A DNA stretch of 44,560 nt. Source: Deltaproteobacteria bacterium. GTDB lineage: Bacteria > Myxococcota_A > Polyangia > Polyangiales > JADJMO01. The notes under the pieces are model-generated. The model was not told the origin of the DNA, did no database searches, and saw only the letters and a program-made list of their open reading frames with translations. Position 1 is the stretch's first letter, and the number at the start of each line of letters is the position of its first letter. Location of the stretch: positions 1 through 44,560 of the forward strand of contig JALHOE010000050.1 of the NCBI GenBank assembly GCA_022843175.1. Reading direction: 5' to 3'. Made by a program: the position numbers and the translations under genes. Of this stretch, positions 11,232-28,972 are shown one piece after another.

Positions 11232-12770
11232 CTACGACTTCGAATACGCCCGCACCGCGTCGAGCACGCGGTTCACCAGCGCCGGCAGATCGAACGGCTT
11301 CTCCAGGATCCCGTCCACGTCCGCGCCGCTCGTCTCCACCACGTACGCATTGGGGTTCAGCTGCCGGAGCCGGCGGGCCACGTCCTCGCCGCTCCCGTCG
11401 CCGAGATCGCGATCGATGATCGCCGCGACGATGCGCTTGGGATCGGCCTCGACGATCTCGAGCGCCGACGCTCGATCCGCAGCCTCTGCCACCGCGAGCC
11501 CGGCGGCCGCGAGCTCGCGCGCGCACGCCCTTCGCAGGCCGCGCTCGTCGTCGGCGACGAGCACCAGCGGGGGGCGGAAGCCGGCGGTCGATTTGCGCTG
11601 GGTCGCGGGCAGCGCGATGGCGACGCGCGCGCCGCCCTCGGGCGACTTCGTGACGAACACGCCGCCGCCGTGCGCGGTCGCCGTCATCTTCACGAGGAAC
11701 AAGCCGAGGCCGCTGCCGCGCTCGCCCTTGGTGGTGAAGCCGGGCTCGAAGATCTTGTCGCGCGCAGCGGCGTCGATGCCGGGGCCGTCGTCGTCGACCG
11801 CGAGGAGCGCCCATTGGCCCGCCGTCTGCCAGGGGCGCTGCAGATCGGGCGTGGTCACGCTCTGTGCGAGCACGCGCACCGTCACCCGGCCGCCGCGGTC
11901 GCGCACGGCGTCGCGCGCGTTGAGCACCAGGTTGAGGAGCGCCTGCTCGATCGCGTGGTCGTCGCCGCGGATCTCGATCGGCAGGTCCGGCGGAACCAGG
12001 CGCAGGTCGATCCACCCGCCGCCGCTCTGGCTGCCGAACAGCCCGCGCGCGATCGCCACGGCCTTGGAGGCGATCGCGGTGGGATCGAGCCCGCGCCGAC
12101 GCGACTGCTTGGGATCGCTCCGGCCGACGTCGCGAAGACGAGCGATCAGCTCCTTGGCCGCCTCGAGCGATGCGGTGATCTCCTCGATCGGCTCGCGCGC
12201 TTCGCGCAGCTGCCGGTCCTCGACGATGCGCGCGAGCGAGCCGAGGTTGGCGAGCGCGGACGAGATGATGTTGCCGAAGTCGTGCGCCAGGCCGCGGGCG
12301 AGCAAGCCGGCGAGGCGCGCGCGCTCGACGTCGACCGCCCGCTCGATCGTGATCATCTCCTCCATCTCGGTCGCGACCGCGCGCGCGAGGTCCGCCACCA
12401 GCTCGGCGTCGCCGGTGCCGAAGGTGCGGTCGTCGCGGTGGAGCGCCGCGAGGATGCCGATGATCGTGCCGTCGCGGAGGTTGACCGGGACGACGAGCGC
12501 CGCGCGCGCGCCGAGCTCCCGCTCGAAGCGGGTGGCGATCGGGAGCGGGCCGCCCCGGAGGACCGGGGCGCCGCTCTGCTGGACGACGCCGGCCAGCGTC
12601 TCGACCACCGGCACCACCGTGCCCGTGGTCACCGCGCCACGGACCAGATCAATCCCTTCGTGGATAACGAGCGTTTCATCGACGATACGCCCGACAAACG
12701 AGAGCTCCGCACCGAGCAGCCGCTTCAGGACGGAGAGAACCGCCTGGGAAATCGGGTGCGTGGCGGCCAT
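11232..12770 (-). CDS. GAF-sensor hybrid histidine kinase with C-terminal receiver domain
   Basis: 512 residues from ATG at 12770. Domain order: GAF-like sensor (about 1-145); dimerisation helix with phospho-acceptor His163 in GLAHDFGN; HATPase with N box LNLVLNARDA (Asn284), G1 DDDGPGI (328-332) and G2 GSGLGL (352-357); linker; receiver domain (about 402-505). The receiver has the acidic pair Asp407-Asp408, phospho-acceptor Asp453, Thr480 and Lys491 (EKPF), so all key residues are present. No membrane segment is visible; the kinase is probably soluble and senses a small molecule through GAF. Phosphorelay within the protein is expected. No separate response regulator with an output domain lies nearby. 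It is divergent from the Ser/Thr kinase at 12827. Confidence 0.93.
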   Translation of the reverse strand: MAATHPISQAVLSVLKRLLGAELSFVGRIVDETLVIHEGIDLVRGAVTTGTVVPVVETLAGVVQQSGAPVLRGGPLPIATRFERELGARAALVVPVNLRDGTIIGILAALHRDDRTFGTGDAELVADLARAVATEMEEMITIERAVDVERARLAGLLARGLAHDFGNIISSALANLGSLARIVEDRQLREAREPIEEITASLEAAKELIARLRDVGRSDPKQSRRRGLDPTAIASKAVAIARGLFGSQSGGGWIDLRLVPPDLPIEIRGDDHAIEQALLNLVLNARDAVRDRGGRVTVRVLAQSVTTPDLQRPWQTAGQWALLAVDDDGPGIDAAARDKIFEPGFTTKGERGSGLGLFLVKMTATAHGGGVFVTKSPEGGARVAIALPATQRKSTAGFRPPLVLVADDERGLRRACARELAAAGLAVAEAADRASALEIVEADPKRIVAAIIDRDLGDGSGEDVARRLRQLNPNAYVVETSGADVDGILEKPFDLPALVNRVLDAVRAYSKS

Positions 12771-12790
12771 GCGCGTCAAAGGTAGACGTG

Positions 12791-12826: not shown

Positions 12827-14953
12827 ATGGTCGAGCCCGAGGAAGCAGTCAGCGGAGAGGGCGACAACCGTCGCACCGATCCGACTGCCGGCCCGCCGAC
12901 CGAGGCCGAGTCGGTGCGCCCCTCCGCGCCCACGATCCAGGGCGACTCGGACCCGAACGTCGCTCCGCGCAAACCGGTCATGATCCGCACGCCGATCCCG
13001 CCGAGCGCGATCGACAGCGTCGTCCCCGCGCTCTCCAGCGTCACCAGCGGCCCGAGCAACCCGAGCCCGATCAGCACCACGCTCCGCTCCGGCGCCAGCC
13101 GCACGCTCATCGGCACCACGCTCGGCCGCTACGAGATCGTCGACGAGCTCGGTCACGGCGGCATGGCCTCGGTGTAGCGCGCGCGCGATCCGCGGCTCGA
13201 GCGCGACGTCGCGCTCAAGGTCATCCACCGCCACCTCCGCGACAACACCGAGATCGCCGAGCGCTTCCGTCACGAGGCGCGCGCCGTCGCCAAGCTCAAG
13301 CACCCGTCCATCGTCGAGATCTACGACGTGCCGGACATCGACGACGAGGAGCGCTTCCTCGTCGCCGAGCTCGTCGACGGCCCCTCGCTCCGCAAATACC
13401 TGCAGAACCTCCGCGCCGAGCTGGGCCACGACTCGCCGGCGCTCTTCCCGCCGGAGATGGCGGCGGCGCTCGTCCTGCAAATCCTCTCCGCGCTCGCTCG
13501 CGCCCACCACGAGGGCATCGTCCACCGCGACGTCAAACCCGAGAACATCCTCATCGCCGGCCTCAAGGCCGACGCCGATAGCCCGCGCACCTCGCAGCGC
13601 CAGAGCGATCCCTCGCGCCCGGCGCCGGTCGCCAAGCTCACCGACTTCGGCATCGCCAAGATCCTCGACGCGCAGTCGATGACGTCCACCGGGCAAATCC
13701 TCGGCTCGCCCGCGCACATGGCGCCCGAGCAGATCGAGTCCGGCGACATCACCCCCAAGGTCGATATCTTCGCGACCGGGGTCCTCTTCTACGAGCTCCT
13801 CACCGGGCAGCTGCCGTTCGACGGCAAGAACCCGGCGCAGGTGATCCGCCGCGTGCTCGAGGGCGATTTCTCCCCGGCCGAGCGCGTCGCGCCGACGGTC
13901 GGCGGTCGCTGGAGCGCGATCGTCGCGTCGATGCTCGCGCGCGATCCCGAGCGCCGCCCGGGAACGGTCGACGAGGTCGAGGCGGCGATCCGCGCCGAGC
14001 TCGACGCGATGGGGGTGAAGGAGCCGGACCGTGAGCTCCTCGACTTCGTCCACGACCCGCGCGCCATCGCCGGCAAGTGGGGCGAGCGCATGAAGCCAAT
14101 CCTCCTGCAGCGCGCCATCGCCGCGCGCGAACGCGGCGACATCGTCGGCAGCGCGCACGATCTCAACCGCGCGCTCGCCTACGACCCCACCGATCCCAAG
14201 CTCGTGCGCGCCGTCACCACGCTGCGCACCCGCGAACGCCGCATGCGCGGGCTGCGGCGCGCCATCCCGATCGCGGCCGCCGCGCTCCTCGTCTCCGGCG
14301 GCACCTTCGGGGTCGTGCGCTGGTCGCAGTCGCGCGCGCACACGGCCCCCTCGGCGAGCGTGTCGGTCGCCCCGGTGCCGACCAAGAGCGTGAGCGCCGA
14401 GCCGAGCACCGCCCCGAGCGCGCGCGTCGACGCCGGCGTCCCCTCGGCGTCGGTGGCGATCCTCACCACCGTCCCGCCGATCGTCACCGGCGGACCGGCC
14501 GACGCCGGCGCGTCCAAGCGGCGAGTACGCATCAGCGTGTTCCCGCCCGGCACCTACTCCGTCGACGGCGGCGCCCCGCACGACTCGTTCGGCGATCCGG
14601 TGCAGGAGCTCTCGATGGGCGAGCACACCATCAGCATCACCGGCCGCTCGGGCTGCTGCGAGCCGTTCACCCAGAAGTTCCGCGTCGAGGCGGGCGAGGG
14701 GGAGCAGTCGCAGACGTTCAAGCTCGCGCTCAAACCGGCGCGCATCAACGTGATCGGCGCCGAGGGCGCCAAGGTCACCGTCGTGCGTCAGTCGGACGGC
14801 GTGCAGCTCGCGACCGGGCCCGCGCCGCTCAGCGTCGTGCTGACCGACACCCAGGTGCCGGTCACGATCACGGTCGAAGCATCGGGCTTTCCAACGAAGT
14901 CGGAGACCGTTACCCTCGTCCCCGGCGACGCCCGAGCCGTCCGCTTCGACTGA
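12827..14953 (+). pseudogene. Transmembrane Ser/Thr protein kinase interrupted by an in-frame TAG at 13175-13177
   Basis: The frame from ATG at 12827 encodes a Pro/Ser/Thr-rich N-terminus of about 100 residues, then a Hanks-type kinase domain. The glycine-rich loop reads LGHGGMASV, a TAG stop at codon 117, then RARD. Relatives have Tyr (TAC or TAT) at this exact place, so a single base change explains the stop. Everything downstream stays in frame and looks intact: Lys131 (VALKVIH), HRDVKPEN (233-240), DFG (273-275), APE (299-301). It continues with a TPR-like helical part, a membrane helix at about 479-497, a Pro/Ser linker and a PEGA-like beta domain to 14953. Any restart past the TAG would lack the ATP-binding loop. 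The gene is the first of a kinase/envelope cluster. Pseudogene, sequence error and stop-codon readthrough are the options. Confidence 0.8.
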
Positions 14954-14958
14954 GAAAA

Positions 14959-15849
14959 ATGCGCTTCGAGCACCTCGGCGTCGTGGCCCTCGTCGCGACC
15001 GCAGCCACTGCGTCCGCCGCGCCGACCCAGGCCGAGCTCGACGCGTTCAAGGTCGGCAAGAAGTTCTACGAGGACGGCAACCACAACCAGGCCGCGCAAC
15101 ACTTCGCGCTCGCGACCGACGGACCGACGCCGAGCATCAAGGACCCGGGGCTGATCAACCAAGCGCGCATGATCCGCGGGGCCAGCGACATGTACCTCGG
15201 TCGCATCGCCGACGCCGACGCGCAGTTCGAGCGCATTCTCCGCAGCAACGCGAAGTTCGAGCCCGACGCGATCCTCTTCCCCCCCGGCGTCCTCGACGAG
15301 TTCCGTCGCATCCGCGAGAAGCTCGAGAAGGAGGCCGCCGACAAGAAGGCGGGAGACGCCAACACCAAGAAGATCGCCGCCCTCGAGGCCGAGAACGCGA
15401 AGCTCGGGCTCCGCGTGAAGGGGCTCGAGGAATACGCGAGCCGCTACGACACCGTCACCAAGCGCTCGCGCGTGCTCGCGTCGATCCCCTTCGGCTACGG
15501 CCAGTTCCAGAACGGCGACCCGGGCCTCGGGATCTTCTTCGCGTCGACCGAGCTGCTCGCCCTCGGCACCGCGACGGTCTCGTATTTCTACCATCAGTCC
15601 CTGCCGCGCGATCCGGTCGACGCCAACGAGGCGCGCTCCGCTGCCGACACCGCGCGGGTCGTGAACTGGATCAGCCTCGGCACGTTCGTCGCGCTCGCCG
15701 TGGGGGGGGTGGTCCAGGCCCACGTCTCGTTCGTCCCGGAGACCAAAGAGACCAAGTCGCGCCCCCTCCCGAAGACGCTTACCTCTTTTCACCCCTTCAC
15801 CACCCCCGTTGCGGGCGGAGCGGTTCTCGGGTTGGGAGCAGCGTTCTGA
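14959..15849 (+). CDS. Secreted TPR-type protein with coiled coil and C-terminal membrane segments
   Basis: 296 residues. It begins five bases after the kinase stop, so the two form one operon. A signal peptide (cleavage near ATASAAP) is followed by TPR-like helices (FKVGKKFYEDGNHNQAAQHF; FERILRSNAKFEPDA). A short coiled coil (KIAALEAENAKLGLRVKGLE, about 138-157) follows, then hydrophobic stretches at about 175-215 and 233-258. The layout matches the TPR plus membrane proteins encoded beside Ser/Thr kinases in myxobacteria, thought to work at the cell envelope. The exact role is unknown. SRPLPK and following residues form a basic tail before the last beta-like segment. Confidence 0.8.
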   Translation: MRFEHLGVVALVATAATASAAPTQAELDAFKVGKKFYEDGNHNQAAQHFALATDGPTPSIKDPGLINQARMIRGASDMYLGRIADADAQFERILRSNAKFEPDAILFPPGVLDEFRRIREKLEKEAADKKAGDANTKKIAALEAENAKLGLRVKGLEEYASRYDTVTKRSRVLASIPFGYGQFQNGDPGLGIFFASTELLALGTATVSYFYHQSLPRDPVDANEARSAADTARVVNWISLGTFVALAVGGVVQAHVSFVPETKETKSRPLPKTLTSFHPFTTPVAGGAVLGLGAAF

Positions 15850-15875: not shown

Positions 15876-17021
15876 GTGCTTATCCGGCGAACGGCTTCGG
15901 CGGGTGTGATCGTGCTGGCCTGCGCAACGACCGCGTGGGGAGTCGCGTGCTCGTTCGAGACGGACCCGTTCGTGAGCGCGGTTCCGCGCCCGGACACCGC
16001 GGTCGGCGACACCGGCACCACCGACACCGCCGTCGACAGCACGCTCGACACGCGCGACACGAGCCCGCTCAAGGACTCGACGATCACCGAGACTTCGGCC
16101 GATAGCGCCGACACCGCCGACGCCCCGGTCGATACGCGCCCCGACGTCGATACCGGACCGCCCACGGTGTTCCCCAACTGCACCACCGTCGTGCCCGACA
16201 TGCTCTGCATCCCGAAGGGCGGCGTCTCGCTCGGTGCCGCCAACCCGACCGCGTGCTCGCCGTCCGGCTGTCCGCACGAGCAACCCAAGGTGTCGGTCAC
16301 CGTCAACGAGTTCCACATCGATCCGCACGAGGTCTCGGTCAAGCGCTTCCGCGCCTGGTGGAACGCGACACCGCGGTACTGGCCGCCGGCCAACGCATCG
16401 TTCTTCAAGGCCGGGTCCAAGGACCTCAAATGGCGTAACAGCTGGCCCACGGCGCCCACCGAGCCGCCCACGAGCGGCTGCACCTGGGCCGGCGCCACGA
16501 GCGACATCAACGACGACAAGCCGATCAACTGCGTCGACTGGTTCACCGCGCTCGCCTTCTGCATGTCCGAGGGCAAGCGCCTGCCGACCGAGGCCGAATG
16601 GGAGCTCGCGGCGGGCGGCGACGACCGGCTGTTCCCCTGGTCGGACCCGGGCACCGAGGACGATCCGTTCGCCGAGGGCGACATAGACTGCGTGCACGCG
16701 CTCAAGGGCTCGTGCACGCCACTGAGCGCCTCGGCCACCTCCACCGTGTGGGGACGCAGCAAATACGGCGTCTGGAACATGGCCGGCAGCTTCAGCGAGT
16801 GGATGCTCGACGCGCACGCGAGCAGCTACTCCGGCGTCACCGCGGGCTCGGTCGACCCGATCACCGACCCGAGCACGCTGGTGACCAACAACCGGCTGAC
16901 CCGCGGCGGCAGCCACCTCAACATCGCCGCGGCGCTGCGCGTCGCGGCCCGCTCGGCGACGAGCATCGCGGCGACCGCGCCCGATTCGCAGATCGGCTTC
17001 CGATGCGCGAAGCGTCTGTAA
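15876..17021 (+). CDS. Lipoprotein with formylglycine-generating-enzyme (SUMF1) fold, catalytic cysteines absent
   Basis: 381 residues from GTG at 15876. The signal peptide ends at WGVAC (lipobox, Cys25), followed by a 70-residue Thr/Asp/Ser-rich linker. The FGE-sulfatase domain spans about 108-381, with the hallmarks MLCIPKGGVSLGA, NEFHIDPHEVSVKRF, PINCVDWFTALAFC, GKRLPTEAEWELAA, YGVWNMAGSFSEWM, LTRGGSH and IGFRCAKRL. True FGE has two catalytic cysteines in a CYRYRC-type segment; here the matching stretch reads ALRVAARS, so oxidase activity is unlikely. Many such proteins are non-catalytic binding modules. The gene sits between two TPR proteins in the kinase cluster. Confidence 0.88.
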   Translation: MLIRRTASAGVIVLACATTAWGVACSFETDPFVSAVPRPDTAVGDTGTTDTAVDSTLDTRDTSPLKDSTITETSADSADTADAPVDTRPDVDTGPPTVFPNCTTVVPDMLCIPKGGVSLGAANPTACSPSGCPHEQPKVSVTVNEFHIDPHEVSVKRFRAWWNATPRYWPPANASFFKAGSKDLKWRNSWPTAPTEPPTSGCTWAGATSDINDDKPINCVDWFTALAFCMSEGKRLPTEAEWELAAGGDDRLFPWSDPGTEDDPFAEGDIDCVHALKGSCTPLSASATSTVWGRSKYGVWNMAGSFSEWMLDAHASSYSGVTAGSVDPITDPSTLVTNNRLTRGGSHLNIAAALRVAARSATSIAATAPDSQIGFRCAKRL

Positions 17022-17035
17022 TAGGCTGAACCGGC

Positions 17036-18109
17036 GTGCGACTCCCCTCCACCCAGCGCCATCGTCCGACCGCGATGCTCCTCGCGATCACGATCGCAGC
17101 CGCGCCCTTCGCGGCATTCGCGGGCCCGGCCGAGGACAAGGCGACCGCGCGCGAGCTCGCGAAAGAGGGCATCGCCGCGGAGCAGAAGGGCGACTGCGCC
17201 ACGGCGATCGATCGCCTGGAGCGCGCCGAGTCGCTGTTCCACGCGCCGCCGCACCTGCAGTTCCTCGCGCGGTGTTACGGCAAGGTCGGCCGCCTCGTCG
17301 ACGCCACGGAGACCTGGCGCAGGCTCACGCTCGAGCCGCTCCCCGCCAACGCGCCCCCCGCGTTCAAGGACGCGATCACCGAGGCCAAGCTCGAGCTCCC
17401 GAAGCTGGAGCCGCGCCTCGGTCACCTCACGCTCCGCGCCGCCCAGAAGTACGACGGCTTCGCCGCCGAGGTCGACGGCAAGGCCTGGCCCACGGCGGCG
17501 CTCGACGTCCCGCGGATCATCGACCCCGGCAAGCACGTCATTCGCGCCCGCGCCATCGGCTACAAGACCTCCGAGGAGTCCGTCGACATCGGCGAGGGCA
17601 AGAGCGAGAGCGTCACGCTCACGCTCGAGGCGGGTACCGATCCCGGGGGCACGCCGCCCGTCGCTTCGTCGTCGTCGTCATCCTCATCCTCATCCTCCGC
17701 CGCGCCGACCGCGTCGACCTCGGTCGCGCCCACCAGTTCCTCGACCTCCGATCGCCCGCCCACCGGCTCGAGCCCGCTGAAGACGGCCGGCTTCGTCACG
17801 CTCTCGGTCGGCGTCGCCGCCCTCGCGGGGGGCGTCGTGGTGGGGCTCATCGGGACCAACAAGTTCAACAGTCTCAAAGCGGACTGCGCTGCGCCAAAGT
17901 CCTGCCGTGATGCAAGTCAACGCGCCGACGAGGTGGACCGCCTCGAGCTCACGGCCAACATCCTCTACGCCACCGGGGGAATCCTCGCTGCGGCGGGCCT
18001 GACCATGGTCCTGCTCGCCCCCTCCGGCAAGCAGTCACCCCCCCCCGTAAGCCTGCAGTTTTCGCCCGGCCCCTCCGGCGGACATGTCTCGTTGACCGGT
18101 TCGTTCTAG
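17036..18109 (+). CDS. TPR / PEGA-domain envelope protein with poly-Ser linker
   Basis: 357 residues from GTG at 17036. The signal peptide cleaves after AAFAGPA. A TPR-like part (ARELAKEGIAAEQKGDCATA; ESLFHAPPHLQFLARCYGKV) is followed by a PEGA-like beta domain (PGKHVIRARAIGYKTSEESV), the surface-exposed module often seen in this group. Next is a run of 11 serines, a Thr/Ser linker, a membrane helix at about 248-272, a short Cys-containing loop (CAAPKSC) and a second helix at about 306-325. Such proteins are abundant in Polyangia beside kinases. The kinase at 18121 starts 11 bases downstream, so they are probably co-transcribed. Confidence 0.82.
   Translation: MRLPSTQRHRPTAMLLAITIAAAPFAAFAGPAEDKATARELAKEGIAAEQKGDCATAIDRLERAESLFHAPPHLQFLARCYGKVGRLVDATETWRRLTLEPLPANAPPAFKDAITEAKLELPKLEPRLGHLTLRAAQKYDGFAAEVDGKAWPTAALDVPRIIDPGKHVIRARAIGYKTSEESVDIGEGKSESVTLTLEAGTDPGGTPPVASSSSSSSSSSSAAPTASTSVAPTSSSTSDRPPTGSSPLKTAGFVTLSVGVAALAGGVVVGLIGTNKFNSLKADCAAPKSCRDASQRADEVDRLELTANILYATGGILAAAGLTMVLLAPSGKQSPPPVSLQFSPGPSGGHVSLTGSF
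17666..17698 (+). repeat. In-frame trinucleotide repeat coding for 11 serines
   Basis: Four TCG codons followed by alternating TCA and TCC codons form a perfect serine run inside the TPR/PEGA gene. Slippage here by whole codons would change the linker length without a frameshift. Confidence 0.8.
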
Positions 18110-18120
18110 ACTAGGCCGCG

Positions 18121-19557
18121 ATGGTCGAATCGGTCGTCGAGGAGCTTGCGCGCAAGCGCCTCGGCAGAACCATCAAGGGCAAGTGGCGTCTCGATCGCCT
18201 GATCGGCGTTGGAGGCATGGCCGCGGTGTACGCCGCCACGCATCGCAACGGCGCGCGGGTCGCCATCAAGATGCTCCACCCGACGATCAGCGCGTCGCAG
18301 CAGATCCGCGCGCGGTTCATTCGCGAGGGCTACCTCGCCAACAAGGTCGACCACCCCGGCGTGGTCCGCGTGCTCGACGACGACGTCGACGACACCGATC
18401 AGTCGGCGTTCCTCGTCATGGACCTGGTCGTCGGCTCCACCCTCGCCGAGCGCGCCATGGAGCGCCTGCTCGATGCGGGCGAGGTGCTCGACGTGGCCGA
18501 GCAGGTCCTGCTCGTGCTGCACGCCGCCCACGAGAAGAGCATCGTCCACCGCGACCTCAAGCCGGACAATCTCCTCGTCGACAAGGACGGCAAGATCCAC
18601 GTCCTCGACTTCGGCATCGCGCGCCTGCTCGACGACGTCACCGGCGGAATCACGTCCACCAAGACCGGCACCGCGTTCGGCACGCCCGGGTTCATGGCCC
18701 CCGAGCAGGCGCTCGGAAAGACGGCGCAGATCTCCGCGCGCACCGACCTCTACGCCCTCGGCGCCACGCTGTTCGCGCTCGTATGCGGAGACTTCGTCCA
18801 CGCCGCCGAGAATCCGCAGGAGCTCCTGGTGCTCGTCGCCACGCAGCCCGCGCGTTCGCTCGCGGAGCTCGCGCCGTCGATGCACCCGGACGTCGTCGCC
18901 ATCATCGACAAGTCCACCCGCAACGTGCCCGAGGAGCGCTGGTCGTCGGCGGCCGCGATGCTCGAAGCCGTGCGGAGCGCGCGCACGCGGCTCGGCGTCA
19001 CCAGCACACGCGTCCTCCCGCTCAACCTCAACCTCACCCCGCCGCCCGGCGACATCGCGCCGTACCGACGCACGCCCGACCACTCGCCCGCGCCCCCGGC
19101 ACCGACGCCGGTGCCGCTGTTCGCGGCTCCGGAGCGCAACTCGCATCCCGATCCGATGGCCTACGCGCCGAGCGATCCGCCGAGCGGAATCGGCCCCACG
19201 CCGTTCACCGTCCACAGCGACGACGAGCCGGCCGTCCCGCAGCGCCGTCCCAAGCTCGTCCCCGTCGCGATCGCGTTCGGCATCGCCGCGCTCATCGCGG
19301 TCATCGCGGTCGTCACGTCGAACGGCCGGCGCGCAGACCTCAAGCCCGCGGCCGCCCCGACGCCCACCGCCACCGAAGAGCCCAAGTCCGCGAAGCCCGC
19401 CGAGACCGCCGCCCCCGAGGCCACGCCGAGCGACACCGCCAGCGTCGCCGCGCCGAGCACCACCCCGTCGCCCAAGGCCACCGCGGCCAAGACCGGCGTC
19501 GTGAAGGTGAAGCCGGTGCCGAGCGCGAGCCAGAAGAAGATCGACGTCGGCTACTGA
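18121..19557 (+). CDS. Transmembrane Ser/Thr protein kinase
   Basis: 478 residues from ATG at 18121. A complete Hanks-type kinase domain covers about 22-285: glycine-rich loop GVGGMAAVY (29-37), Lys50 in VAIKML, HRDLKPDN (143-150), DFG (163-165), GTPGFMAPEQ with APE at 193-195. All catalytic residues are intact, in contrast to the kinase at 12827. A juxtamembrane Pro-rich region, one membrane helix (about 380-399) and an Ala/Pro/Thr-rich extracytoplasmic tail follow. There is no recognisable sensor domain outside, only low complexity. The gene closes the plus-strand kinase/envelope cluster and ends 14 bases before the convergent cbb3 operon. Confidence 0.94.
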   Translation: MVESVVEELARKRLGRTIKGKWRLDRLIGVGGMAAVYAATHRNGARVAIKMLHPTISASQQIRARFIREGYLANKVDHPGVVRVLDDDVDDTDQSAFLVMDLVVGSTLAERAMERLLDAGEVLDVAEQVLLVLHAAHEKSIVHRDLKPDNLLVDKDGKIHVLDFGIARLLDDVTGGITSTKTGTAFGTPGFMAPEQALGKTAQISARTDLYALGATLFALVCGDFVHAAENPQELLVLVATQPARSLAELAPSMHPDVVAIIDKSTRNVPEERWSSAAAMLEAVRSARTRLGVTSTRVLPLNLNLTPPPGDIAPYRRTPDHSPAPPAPTPVPLFAAPERNSHPDPMAYAPSDPPSGIGPTPFTVHSDDEPAVPQRRPKLVPVAIAFGIAALIAVIAVVTSNGRRADLKPAAAPTPTATEEPKSAKPAETAAPEATPSDTASVAAPSTTPSPKATAAKTGVVKVKPVPSASQKKIDVGY

Positions 19558-21566: not shown

Positions 21567-22142
21567 CTACAGCTCCGGTTCTCCCTGGGGCGCCTTGCCG
21601 CCCGGGGCCTTGGTGTTCTTCAACGTGAGCACGTAGGCCGACACGAGCCGCACGCGCTCCTCGCCGAGCGAGCCCCCCCATGCGGGCATGCCCTTGGCGA
21701 CGACGCCGTCCTTGATCGTTCCGTAGATCTTGGTCGGCGCACCGCCGTGCATCCAGAACTCGTCGGTGAGGTTCGGACCGATCCCGCCGCCGCCGGTCGC
21801 CGCGTGGCACGGCGCGCAGGTAGTGGCGAACACCGTCTTCCCGTCCTCGAGGCTCTTTCCGTCCTTGGCGAGCGCCGCGAGGCTCTCGTTGGTGACCGAG
21901 CCGAGGGCCTTCATCTTCTGCGCCTCCTCGGCCGCGACGAGGTCCATCTCGGCCTGGTAGGCAGCGCGCGGCGAGGCGGTCGTCTTGAACGCCTCCGCGC
22001 TGAGCCAGTACGCGGCCCCGAAGGTGATGGTGCCGAAGAAGATCCACAGCCACCAACGCGGGAGCGCGTTGTCGCACTCCTCGATGCCGTCGTAGACGTG
22101 GACGACCTTGTCCTTCTGATCCTTGGTGTTGTGAGCGGACAT
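21567..22142 (-). CDS. ccoP: CcoP-like membrane cytochrome c subunit with a single haem site
   Basis: 191 residues. A cytoplasmic N-terminus (VVHVYDGIEECDNALPRWW, the conserved CcoP start) leads into one membrane helix at about 30-48 (WLWIFFGTITFGAAYWLSA). A periplasmic cytochrome c domain follows with one CxxCH motif (CAPCH) and the distal Met in KGMPAWGG. Canonical CcoP is near 300 residues and carries two haem c; the second domain is absent here, not broken by a visible frameshift. It would pass electrons to the catalytic subunit. It is preceded by ccoQ with one base between stop and start. Confidence 0.93.
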   Translation of the reverse strand: MSAHNTKDQKDKVVHVYDGIEECDNALPRWWLWIFFGTITFGAAYWLSAEAFKTTASPRAAYQAEMDLVAAEEAQKMKALGSVTNESLAALAKDGKSLEDGKTVFATTCAPCHAATGGGGIGPNLTDEFWMHGGAPTKIYGTIKDGVVAKGMPAWGGSLGEERVRLVSAYVLTLKNTKAPGGKAPQGEPEL

Positions 22143-22143
22143 G

Positions 22144-22302
22144 TCAGTCGTCTCCCAGCGGCAGGGAAGCGGTGCGGTCGTAGCTCTCGGCGCGACGCGA
22201 GTAGGTGCGGATGACCTGCGCGACGAACGTCGTGAGGAACAACACGAGCGCGATCAGCGGGAAGATGAGGAGCGAGCTGTGCTCGAGGAGTTGGCGGTAC
22301 AT
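22144..22302 (-). CDS. ccoQ: CcoQ-like small membrane subunit
   Basis: 52 residues: MYRQLLEHSSLLIFPLIALV, then LFLTTFVAQVIRTYSRR and an acidic tail ending GDD. There is a single membrane helix at about 10-31, followed by basic residues. Size, helix and place between ccoO and ccoP fit CcoQ, which stabilises the cbb3 complex. Its ATG shares a base with the ccoNO stop (TGATG), so translation is coupled. The protein is too small for many gene callers. Sequence conservation of CcoQ is low, so the call rests mainly on context. Confidence 0.82.
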   Translation of the reverse strand: MYRQLLEHSSLLIFPLIALVLFLTTFVAQVIRTYSRRAESYDRTASLPLGDD

Positions 22303-24650
22303 CAGTGCATGCTCACGGTTTGGGTCTTCGCCGGGGCCGGCGGAGGCGCGTTCTTTCCGAGGCGCTGCAGGTAGGCGATCAGCGCGACGAGCTCACTGTC
22401 GGGAGAGACCTTGGCGCCGTTCTGCGCGAGGTCGGCGGTGACTTCGGCGGCTTGCGACTTGGCGTCGGCGACCGCGGACTGGACCTGTTGCGGGGTGTAG
22501 GGGACGCCCACCGCGCGCATCGCTCGGAGCTTCGACTCGGTGTTGCTCCAGTCGATCGAGGCCTTGGCGAGGTGGTCGTAGTTGGGCATGTTCGAGCCGG
22601 TCGACACCGAGCGCGGATCGAGCATGTGCTGGTAGTGCCAGAGGTTCGGGTACTTGCCGCCGAGGCGAGACAGGTCTGGCCCGGTGCGCTTGCTACCCCA
22701 CTGGAACGGGTGGTCGAACTTGCTGTCGTTGAGCGTGGAGAGGTCGCCGTACCGCAGCGTCTCGTGACGGAAGGGACGAATCATCTGCGAGTGGCAGTTG
22801 TAACAACCCTCCTTGAGGTAGACGTCGCGACCCTCGAGCTCGAGCGCGCGATAGGGGTGGGTCTCCTTGCCCGCGAGCGCCTTGGTGCCCGCGCCGGAGT
22901 TGGGGATGACGATCGCCGGGATGATCTCGGCAACGCCGCCGATGAGCACCGCGATCACGGTGAGGACGGTGAAGATCATCGTGCGGCCCTCGACCATCGA
23001 GTGCCAGCCCGGCTTGCTGTCGTCCTTGAGCGTCCAGCCGATGAACACCGCGCCGAAGGCGATGCACGCAGCGAGGATGATGAACGCGCCGGCGCCGATG
23101 CCGTCGGTGAGCGCGATGCCCCCGAGCACGAGGATGCAGACCGCGGAGGTGATCACGGGCCACCCGAAGACGATCTTCCGCGCGGGGACCTTCTCCTCGA
23201 CCTCGACCACGTCGACGACGACCTCGGTGGTACCGTCGACCGCCTTGCCCTGACGCGCGGTCTTCACGAGGTTCCACGCCATCATGCACATGCCGGTGAA
23301 GTACATGAGACCGCCGATGAGGCGCATCCAGTACATCGGCTTGATGGCGTCGAGCGTCGCCATGAAGCTCGGGTGCATCAGCGCGCCCTTGGCGTCGATC
23401 GCGCGGAGCATCAGCCCCTGCGTGATGCCGCTCACCCACATCGACACGACGTAGAGCAGGATGCCGATGGTGCCGATCCAGAAGTGCCACTCGGCGGCGC
23501 GCTTGCTGTAGAGCGTCGTGCCGAACAGGCGCGGCACCATCCAGTAGAACATGCCGGCCGCGAGGAACCCGTTCCAGCCGAGGGCGCCGGCGTGCACGTG
23601 GCCGACGATCCAGTCGGTGTAGTGCGCGAGCGCGCTCACGCTCTTGATCGAGAGGAGCGGCCCCTCGAAGGTGGCCATGCCGTAGAACGTGAGGCCGGCG
23701 ACGAAGAACTTGAGCACCGGATCGGTGCGGACCTTGTCCCAGGCGCCGCGGATCGTGAACAGGCCGTTGAGCATGCCGCCCCACGACGGCGCGATGAGGG
23801 CGACGCTGAAGATCATGCCCAGCGTCTGAGCCCAATCGGGCAGCGCCGTGTTGAGCAGGTGGTGCGGGCCCGCCCAGATGTACATGAACACCAGGGCCCA
23901 GAAGTGGATGATCGACAGCCGGTAGCTGTAGACGGGGCGCTCCGCGGCCTTCGGAACGAAGTAGTACATGATGCCGAGGATCGGCGTGGTGAGGAAGAAC
24001 GCGACCGCGTTATGGCCGTACCACCACTGCACCAACGCATCCTGCGCGCCGCCGTACACCGAGTAGCTCTTGAACCACGTGACGGGGATCGCGAGCGAGT
24101 TGACGATGTGGAGCACCGCGACGGTGACGATGGTCGCGATGTAGAACCACACCGCGACGTACAGCTGCTTCTCGTGACGCTTGTAGAGCGTCCAGAAGAA
24201 GTTCACCGCGAAGACGACCCACACCGCGGCGATGGCGATGTCGATCGGCCACTCGAGCTCCGCGTACTCCTTGCCCTGGGTGAAACCCAACGGGAGGGAG
24301 ACCGCGGCGGCGACGATGATCGCCTGCCAGCCCCAGAAGTGGATTCGTCCGAGCTTGCTCGAGGCGATGCGCGCTTTGACCAGCCGCTGCGTCGAGTAGT
24401 AGACGCCGGCGAACATCATGTTGCCGACGAAGGCGAAGATCGCCGCGTTCGTGTGCAGCGGGCGGAGCCGCCCGAAGTTGAACATCGGGTAGACGTTCGC
24501 CTTGAAGAACGCGAGCTGCAGCGCGGCGATGACGCCGATGAGCATCGCGACGATTCCCCACCCCACCGACGCGAACACGAACCAGCGAGCGAGCGAGTCG
24601 TCGTAGGTGATCTTCTTCACTTCCTGCTTGGCAGCGATGACCTGGCTCAT
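22302..24650 (-). CDS. ccoNO: Fused CcoN-CcoO: cbb3 oxidase catalytic subunit joined to the mono-haem cytochrome c subunit
   Basis: 782 residues. Residues 1 to about 465 are CcoN: low-spin haem ligand His66 (RPLHTNAA), CuB ligands His213 (WWYGHNAV), His263 and His264 (WAGPHHLL), and haem ligands in VGHVHAG (His351, His353). After a charged linker (about 465-490) come extra helices at about 495-540. The CcoO part has its helix at 557-580, one CxxCH (CYNCH, 616-620), the conserved SQMIRPFRHET and Met in GSNMPNYDHL. It reduces oxygen to water and pumps protons at low oxygen. A ccoN-ccoO fusion is known in several groups, notably Bacteroidota. The start overlaps the ccoS stop by ATGA. Confidence 0.96.
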   Translation of the reverse strand: MSQVIAAKQEVKKITYDDSLARWFVFASVGWGIVAMLIGVIAALQLAFFKANVYPMFNFGRLRPLHTNAAIFAFVGNMMFAGVYYSTQRLVKARIASSKLGRIHFWGWQAIIVAAAVSLPLGFTQGKEYAELEWPIDIAIAAVWVVFAVNFFWTLYKRHEKQLYVAVWFYIATIVTVAVLHIVNSLAIPVTWFKSYSVYGGAQDALVQWWYGHNAVAFFLTTPILGIMYYFVPKAAERPVYSYRLSIIHFWALVFMYIWAGPHHLLNTALPDWAQTLGMIFSVALIAPSWGGMLNGLFTIRGAWDKVRTDPVLKFFVAGLTFYGMATFEGPLLSIKSVSALAHYTDWIVGHVHAGALGWNGFLAAGMFYWMVPRLFGTTLYSKRAAEWHFWIGTIGILLYVVSMWVSGITQGLMLRAIDAKGALMHPSFMATLDAIKPMYWMRLIGGLMYFTGMCMMAWNLVKTARQGKAVDGTTEVVVDVVEVEEKVPARKIVFGWPVITSAVCILVLGGIALTDGIGAGAFIILAACIAFGAVFIGWTLKDDSKPGWHSMVEGRTMIFTVLTVIAVLIGGVAEIIPAIVIPNSGAGTKALAGKETHPYRALELEGRDVYLKEGCYNCHSQMIRPFRHETLRYGDLSTLNDSKFDHPFQWGSKRTGPDLSRLGGKYPNLWHYQHMLDPRSVSTGSNMPNYDHLAKASIDWSNTESKLRAMRAVGVPYTPQQVQSAVADAKSQAAEVTADLAQNGAKVSPDSELVALIAYLQRLGKNAPPPAPAKTQTVSMH

Positions 24651-28078: not shown

Positions 28079-28972
28079 CTAGACAAGGGAGGAGCGAGCC
28101 TGCCGGAGGGCATCGATGGACTTCTCGAGTGCCGCGCGCTCGGGCTCGTCCATGTCCGGCATGATGACCTCGACCGCGCCGCCGCGGTCGACGACGCAAG
28201 GCAGCGAGAAGACCGTGTCGCCATGCATGCGCGACACGGTCAGCACGCGGCGCTCGCTGCGGAGGATGCTCCGCAAGAGATCGGCAGTCGCAAGCCCAAT
28301 CGCGTGATTGGTGGCGCCCTTGCGCTTGATGATCTCGTAGGCCGCGCGACGAACCTCGCTGGCGACCTTCGTCTCCGATGATTTCGACCAGGCGGTGCGA
28401 GAGCGCAAGCGCGCCCCGCCGACGGTCGCGCTCGAGAAGAGGGCCACCTCGGAGTCGCCGTGCTCGCCGACCACCTGCGCGTGGATCGACCGGGCGTCGA
28501 TGCCGATCGAGCGCGCGAGGACGTGACGCAGACGCGCGGTGTCGAGCGTGGTCCCGGTTCCGATCACGCGCTCGACGGGGAGCACCGCGGCCTCGAGCAC
28601 CTCTTGGGTGAAGATGTCGACCGGGTTGGTGACGCAGACGACGATGCCGCGGTAGTTGCGCAGGCGCGAGCCGAGATCGCGCGCGACCGCCACGTTGTCG
28701 CGGAGGAGCTGCAGGCGCGACTCGCCGGCCTTGCTGCCGCGGCCGGCGGCGATCACGACGACGTCGGCGGTGGGCATCTCGTCGAGCTTCCCGGCGCGCA
28801 CCTCGGCGTGCGGATAGAACGGCGCGCCGTGGGCGAGGTCCATCGCCTCGCCCTCGGCGATCTCCTGACGGACGTCGCAGAGCAACATCTTGCTGGCGAG
28901 GCCCGCGTGCAGCGTCGACATGGCGACGCTCGACCCGACCCAGCCCATGCCCACGATCGCGACGGTGCTCAT
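28079..28972 (-). CDS. L-lactate/malate dehydrogenase family protein with altered specificity residue
   Basis: 297 residues. The NAD-binding loop is GMGWVG (8-13) and an acidic residue follows in LLCDVR. Active-site residues by family alignment: Arg86 in GESR (Arg109 of LDH), Asp144 and Arg147 in LDTARLR (168 and 171), His171 in VVGEHGDSE (His195). At the position that reads Gln in lactate and Arg in malate dehydrogenases, this protein has Ser80 (GRGSKAGESR), so the substrate side chain is not predictable; another 2-oxo acid is possible. The gene is the last of a three-gene operon with a universal stress protein and an amidase, each junction an ATGA overlap. Confidence 0.88.
   Translation of the reverse strand: MSTVAIVGMGWVGSSVAMSTLHAGLASKMLLCDVRQEIAEGEAMDLAHGAPFYPHAEVRAGKLDEMPTADVVVIAAGRGSKAGESRLQLLRDNVAVARDLGSRLRNYRGIVVCVTNPVDIFTQEVLEAAVLPVERVIGTGTTLDTARLRHVLARSIGIDARSIHAQVVGEHGDSEVALFSSATVGGARLRSRTAWSKSSETKVASEVRRAAYEIIKRKGATNHAIGLATADLLRSILRSERRVLTVSRMHGDTVFSLPCVVDRGGAVEVIMPDMDEPERAALEKSIDALRQARSSLV

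Follow-up and report, generated by a model that had tools for sequence, protein, structure and literature searches.

Hanks-type Ser/Thr protein kinases (Pfam family PF00069) occur in large sets in Myxococcota. Young nonsense alleles are common in bacteria, and one such mutation, or one error, in several hundred genes is unremarkable. An in-frame TAG inside a conserved gene is also encountered in amber recoding, which comprises pyrrolysine insertion, suppressor tRNAs and reassignment of TAG. In E. coli, misreading of TAG inserts Tyr, Gln or Lys, the mean TAG signal of reporters stays below 1% at each listed temperature and medium, and a G-rich, T-poor sequence downstream of the codon raises TAG readthrough (PMC11126739).

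The stretch of DNA analysed here (hereafter, the window; 44,560 nucleotides) comes from an uncultured bacterium related to Myxococcota. It is contig C50 of a 9.75 Mb draft genome that consists of 470 contigs, is 95% complete and has metagenome-assembled Deltaproteobacteria as its nearest relatives. In the assembled window, a Ser/Thr kinase gene contains TAG at a position where relatives have a Tyr codon, within a frame that is otherwise intact and constrained, and in a genome where TAG is used normally.

The interrupted kinase gene and its neighbourhood

The kinase gene (12827..14953, + strand) likely starts at ATG 12827 and ends with TGA at 14951-14953; its frame is also open upstream of this ATG, up to GTG 12788. 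Direct inspection of the window sequence shows TAG at 13175-13177, in frame and within the glycine-rich loop (GGMASV-TAG-RARD), and this is the only internal stop that interrupts the frame between the start and the C-terminus. The read-through protein matches PF00069 over residues 115-393 (E = 2.4e-47) with 162 bits, well above the gathering cut-off of 31.7 bits, and reaches the cut-off of no named NCBIfam kinase family. The VALK, HRDVKPEN, DFG and APE motifs are all in frame, 591 sense codons follow the TAG, and the gene has no other stops or frameshifts. These observations agree with the initial annotation, which described a TAG that replaces the tyrosine in the glycine loop of a Ser/Thr kinase, with the other catalytic motifs in frame and about 590 further codons free of decay.

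The surrounding genes are intact. Upstream, in divergent orientation, lies a protein with GAF, histidine-kinase ATPase and receiver domains (11232..12779, − strand) whose gene ends in TAG. Downstream, on the + strand, the kinase gene is followed by a gene that is conserved in the sister genome (14959..15849), an FGE-sulfatase domain protein (15876..17021), a second gene ending in TAG (17036..18109) and a second Ser/Thr kinase (18121..19557), and this downstream gene order is the same in the congener G001. The TPR partners that had been proposed for the kinase could not be confirmed: the products of 14959-15849 and 17036-18109 match no Pfam family. Elsewhere in the window, COX1 and FixO domains share one open frame (22302-24650, − strand) in which two cbb3 oxidase subunits are fused; the sister genome has a single frame here as well.

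The codon in relatives and the age of the lesion

We aligned the position of the TAG across 120 other loci, a set that includes some places fetched twice and 11 paralogs from the window's own genome. An aromatic residue occupies the position at all 120 (Tyr at 103, Phe at 14, Trp at 3), encoded by TAC (70), TAT (33), TTC (10), TTT (4) or TGG (3); no locus has a stop there, and TAG is found in the window alone. Tyr is thus the expected residue, as had been proposed. Comparison with four other genomes of the family, including G001 as the only congener, shows TAT or TAC at the site in each, so that the TAG is private to the window's genome and lies one base from the codon of its relatives. The kinase orthologs in these relatives are 54-69% identical to the window's (67-69% for the sister ortholog), and a search of viral contigs for the exact site found no match. 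One ortholog, in another family member (locus L016, G004:C115), carries a TGA close to its contig end (query position 500, with some 18-60 bases left to the edge), which is either an artefact of that edge or a lesion that arose independently.

Substitution rates (NG86 values) bear on the age of the interruption. The two kinase genes differ by a dS of about 0.5, and dN/dS in the kinase domain 3' of the stop is about 0.32. With two outgroups, 10-11 amino-acid changes in this domain are specific to the window, compared with 21-23 specific to the sister, which indicates that constraint was not relaxed on the window lineage; in the C-terminal part, the corresponding numbers are 33-35 in the window and 23-32 in the sister. 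About 2% of random substitutions in the 591 codons after the TAG would create a stop, and if half of the sister dS (0.25) is assigned to the window branch, about 9 further stops are expected for a gene free of selection along that whole branch (591 × 3 × 0.25 × 0.02 = 8.9), whereas none is observed. Taken together, the lack of additional stops and the unrelaxed constraint indicate that the lesion is very young or absent from the organism, and the original proposal of a very recent event or an error therefore holds.

Such lesions are rare in the assembly where we looked. In ten further genes that match the sister contig, all of them syntenic neighbours, no internal stop occurs. The same kinase query has 153 matches in the window's genome (E ≤ 0.001), a very large set of some 150 kinase-like genes. 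Realignment of those that had been flagged with internal stops left no stop inside a kinase core; the remaining stops lie upstream of the core, at query positions 79, 86, 93, 99 and 105, where the alignments overrun the start of the gene. The stop-free neighbours and realigned kinase cores indicate that lesions are not frequent in the assembly.

Recent nonsense mutation or assembly error

The most likely reading, which we favour with moderate confidence, is that the TAG represents a recent nonsense allele and leaves the kinase inactive. A stop private to one genome, intact relatives (the congener and three other family members carry TAT or TAC) and no added decay are the marks of such an allele; the otherwise undamaged gene and its constrained kinase domain point to a young lesion, and the stop-free neighbours and kinase cores to a lesion-poor assembly. 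Under this reading, a single-base change in the sampled strain or population would have turned a Tyr codon into amber very recently. Ribosomes would stop after about 116 codons, ahead of the catalytic Lys, and no working kinase would be made save for traces from ordinary misreading of TAG. The loss of one among so many kinase-like genes would plausibly be tolerated. Both the reality of the base in the organism and the loss of the kinase are inferences, and two observations weigh against this reading: purifying selection up to the present would also appear under an error, and a lone changed base beside an alternating GC run might equally be a miscall. The changed base, 13177, opens a run of 11 alternating G and C bases (13177..13187, + strand). 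The change lengthens this run by one base, which fits a replication slip or a miscall alike and does not decide between them.

Next most likely, with a substantial though smaller share of our belief, is an assembly or base-calling error, in which case the organism itself would carry Tyr at this codon and possess a normal kinase. The fragmentation of the draft, the metagenome-assembled origin of its relatives, the intact and constrained remainder of the gene, the adjoining GC run and the presence of TAG in no other genome compared are all consistent with an error. However, neither the neighbours nor the kinase paralogs (about 150) show a comparable lesion where checked, and the error rate is thus not high. 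No paper on erroneous stop codons in metagenome-assembled genomes came up in a literature search. Our preference for mutation over error follows from the low lesion background and the commonness of young nonsense alleles rather than from a direct test.

Translation beyond the amber codon

We consider it improbable that translation restarts downstream of the TAG to give a membrane-bound pseudokinase that lacks its ATP-binding loop. In-frame start codons exist, the first being GTG 13328, 50 codons after the TAG, followed by ATG 13457, and the C-terminal part is intact. However, neither start has a clear ribosome site, and even the longest possible restart frame, from the GTG (13328..14953, + strand), would begin inside the kinase N-lobe, past the glycine loop, the catalytic Lys and helix C. 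The GTG is a Val codon within the conserved EIYDVPD stretch, and the kinase-domain constraint resembles that of intact relatives, with no sign of a new role. The restart product suggested in the initial annotation thus found no positive evidence.

Functional readthrough or suppression, in which Tyr or another residue would be inserted at a useful rate and the full-length kinase made, is similarly improbable. It would account for the intact and constrained frame, and the sequence 3' of the stop is G-rich and T-poor, the kind that raises readthrough in E. coli; the mean TAG readthrough of the E. coli reporters, however, remains under 1% (PMC11126739). TAG terminates intact genes of the window that are conserved in the sister (among them 11232-12779, 17036-18109, 21567-22142 and 28079-28972), and release factor RF1 is present and uninterrupted (485.7 bits); on these grounds genome-wide reassignment of amber is rejected. 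The search for a suppressor tRNA that had been proposed as a check was run on the genome: about 70 tRNA genes were found and no CUA anticodon occurs among them, although at 95% completeness such a gene could lie in a gap. A second set of poorly conserved tRNAs on contig C135 (locus L154) likewise has no CUA anticodon; three of its members, missed or poorly typed by ARAGORN, were inspected by eye and show CGT, GAT and, in one case, an 8-base loop around TTCG. Additional weak tRNA matches on contigs C60, C2 and C3 yielded no tRNA with ARAGORN. The best match to PylS has 25 bits, far under the curated cut-off of 178, and a pyrrolysine system is rejected. The 100 bases after the stop fold like shuffled sequences (z-score 0.05) and hold no stimulating RNA structure, and no relative has the stop, so that neither hallmark of programmed readthrough, conservation of the stop or a stimulatory fold 3' of it, is seen here. 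With no CUA tRNA, no PylS above its cut-off, no unusual structure and RF1 present, only basal misreading is left, and the readthrough raised in the initial annotation is not borne out as a dedicated mechanism. Least likely of all is the variant in which the amber is real, fixed in the species and usefully read through with Tyr, with stop efficiency setting the amount of kinase.

The C135 tRNAs form an array of their own (L154 10158-19992): about 27 poorly scoring genes on one strand, mostly one per amino acid and additional to the normal tRNA set. Genes for an ARPP-1 protein (L154 15150-16094) and a Ro60 vWA/TROVE protein (L154 17743-19515) lie beside them, and the array resembles a tRNA cluster accompanied by genes of the RNA-repair type.

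The TAG is an ordinary recent knock-out or an assembly error, and represents no new way of reading the code: a single stop in one of the many kinase-like genes of a draft is a routine loss or a routine error. The case cautions that an intact frame past a stop does not alone indicate recoding. The codons of the sister, RF1, the tRNA set, terminator use and lineage-specific rates are simple checks that resolve most of the question. Compared with known systems, the window copy shares all standard motifs with the Hanks-type Ser/Thr kinases if read through, and differs from them by the TAG in its glycine-rich loop. It resembles recoded genes in its in-frame TAG, whereas its genome lacks a CUA tRNA and an above-cut-off PylS, contains RF1 and uses TAG as an ordinary terminator, and the codon itself is not conserved. 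From the young nonsense and sequencing-error pseudogenes of draft bacterial genomes, which likewise combine one private stop with no further decay and intact relatives, the window copy shows no difference.
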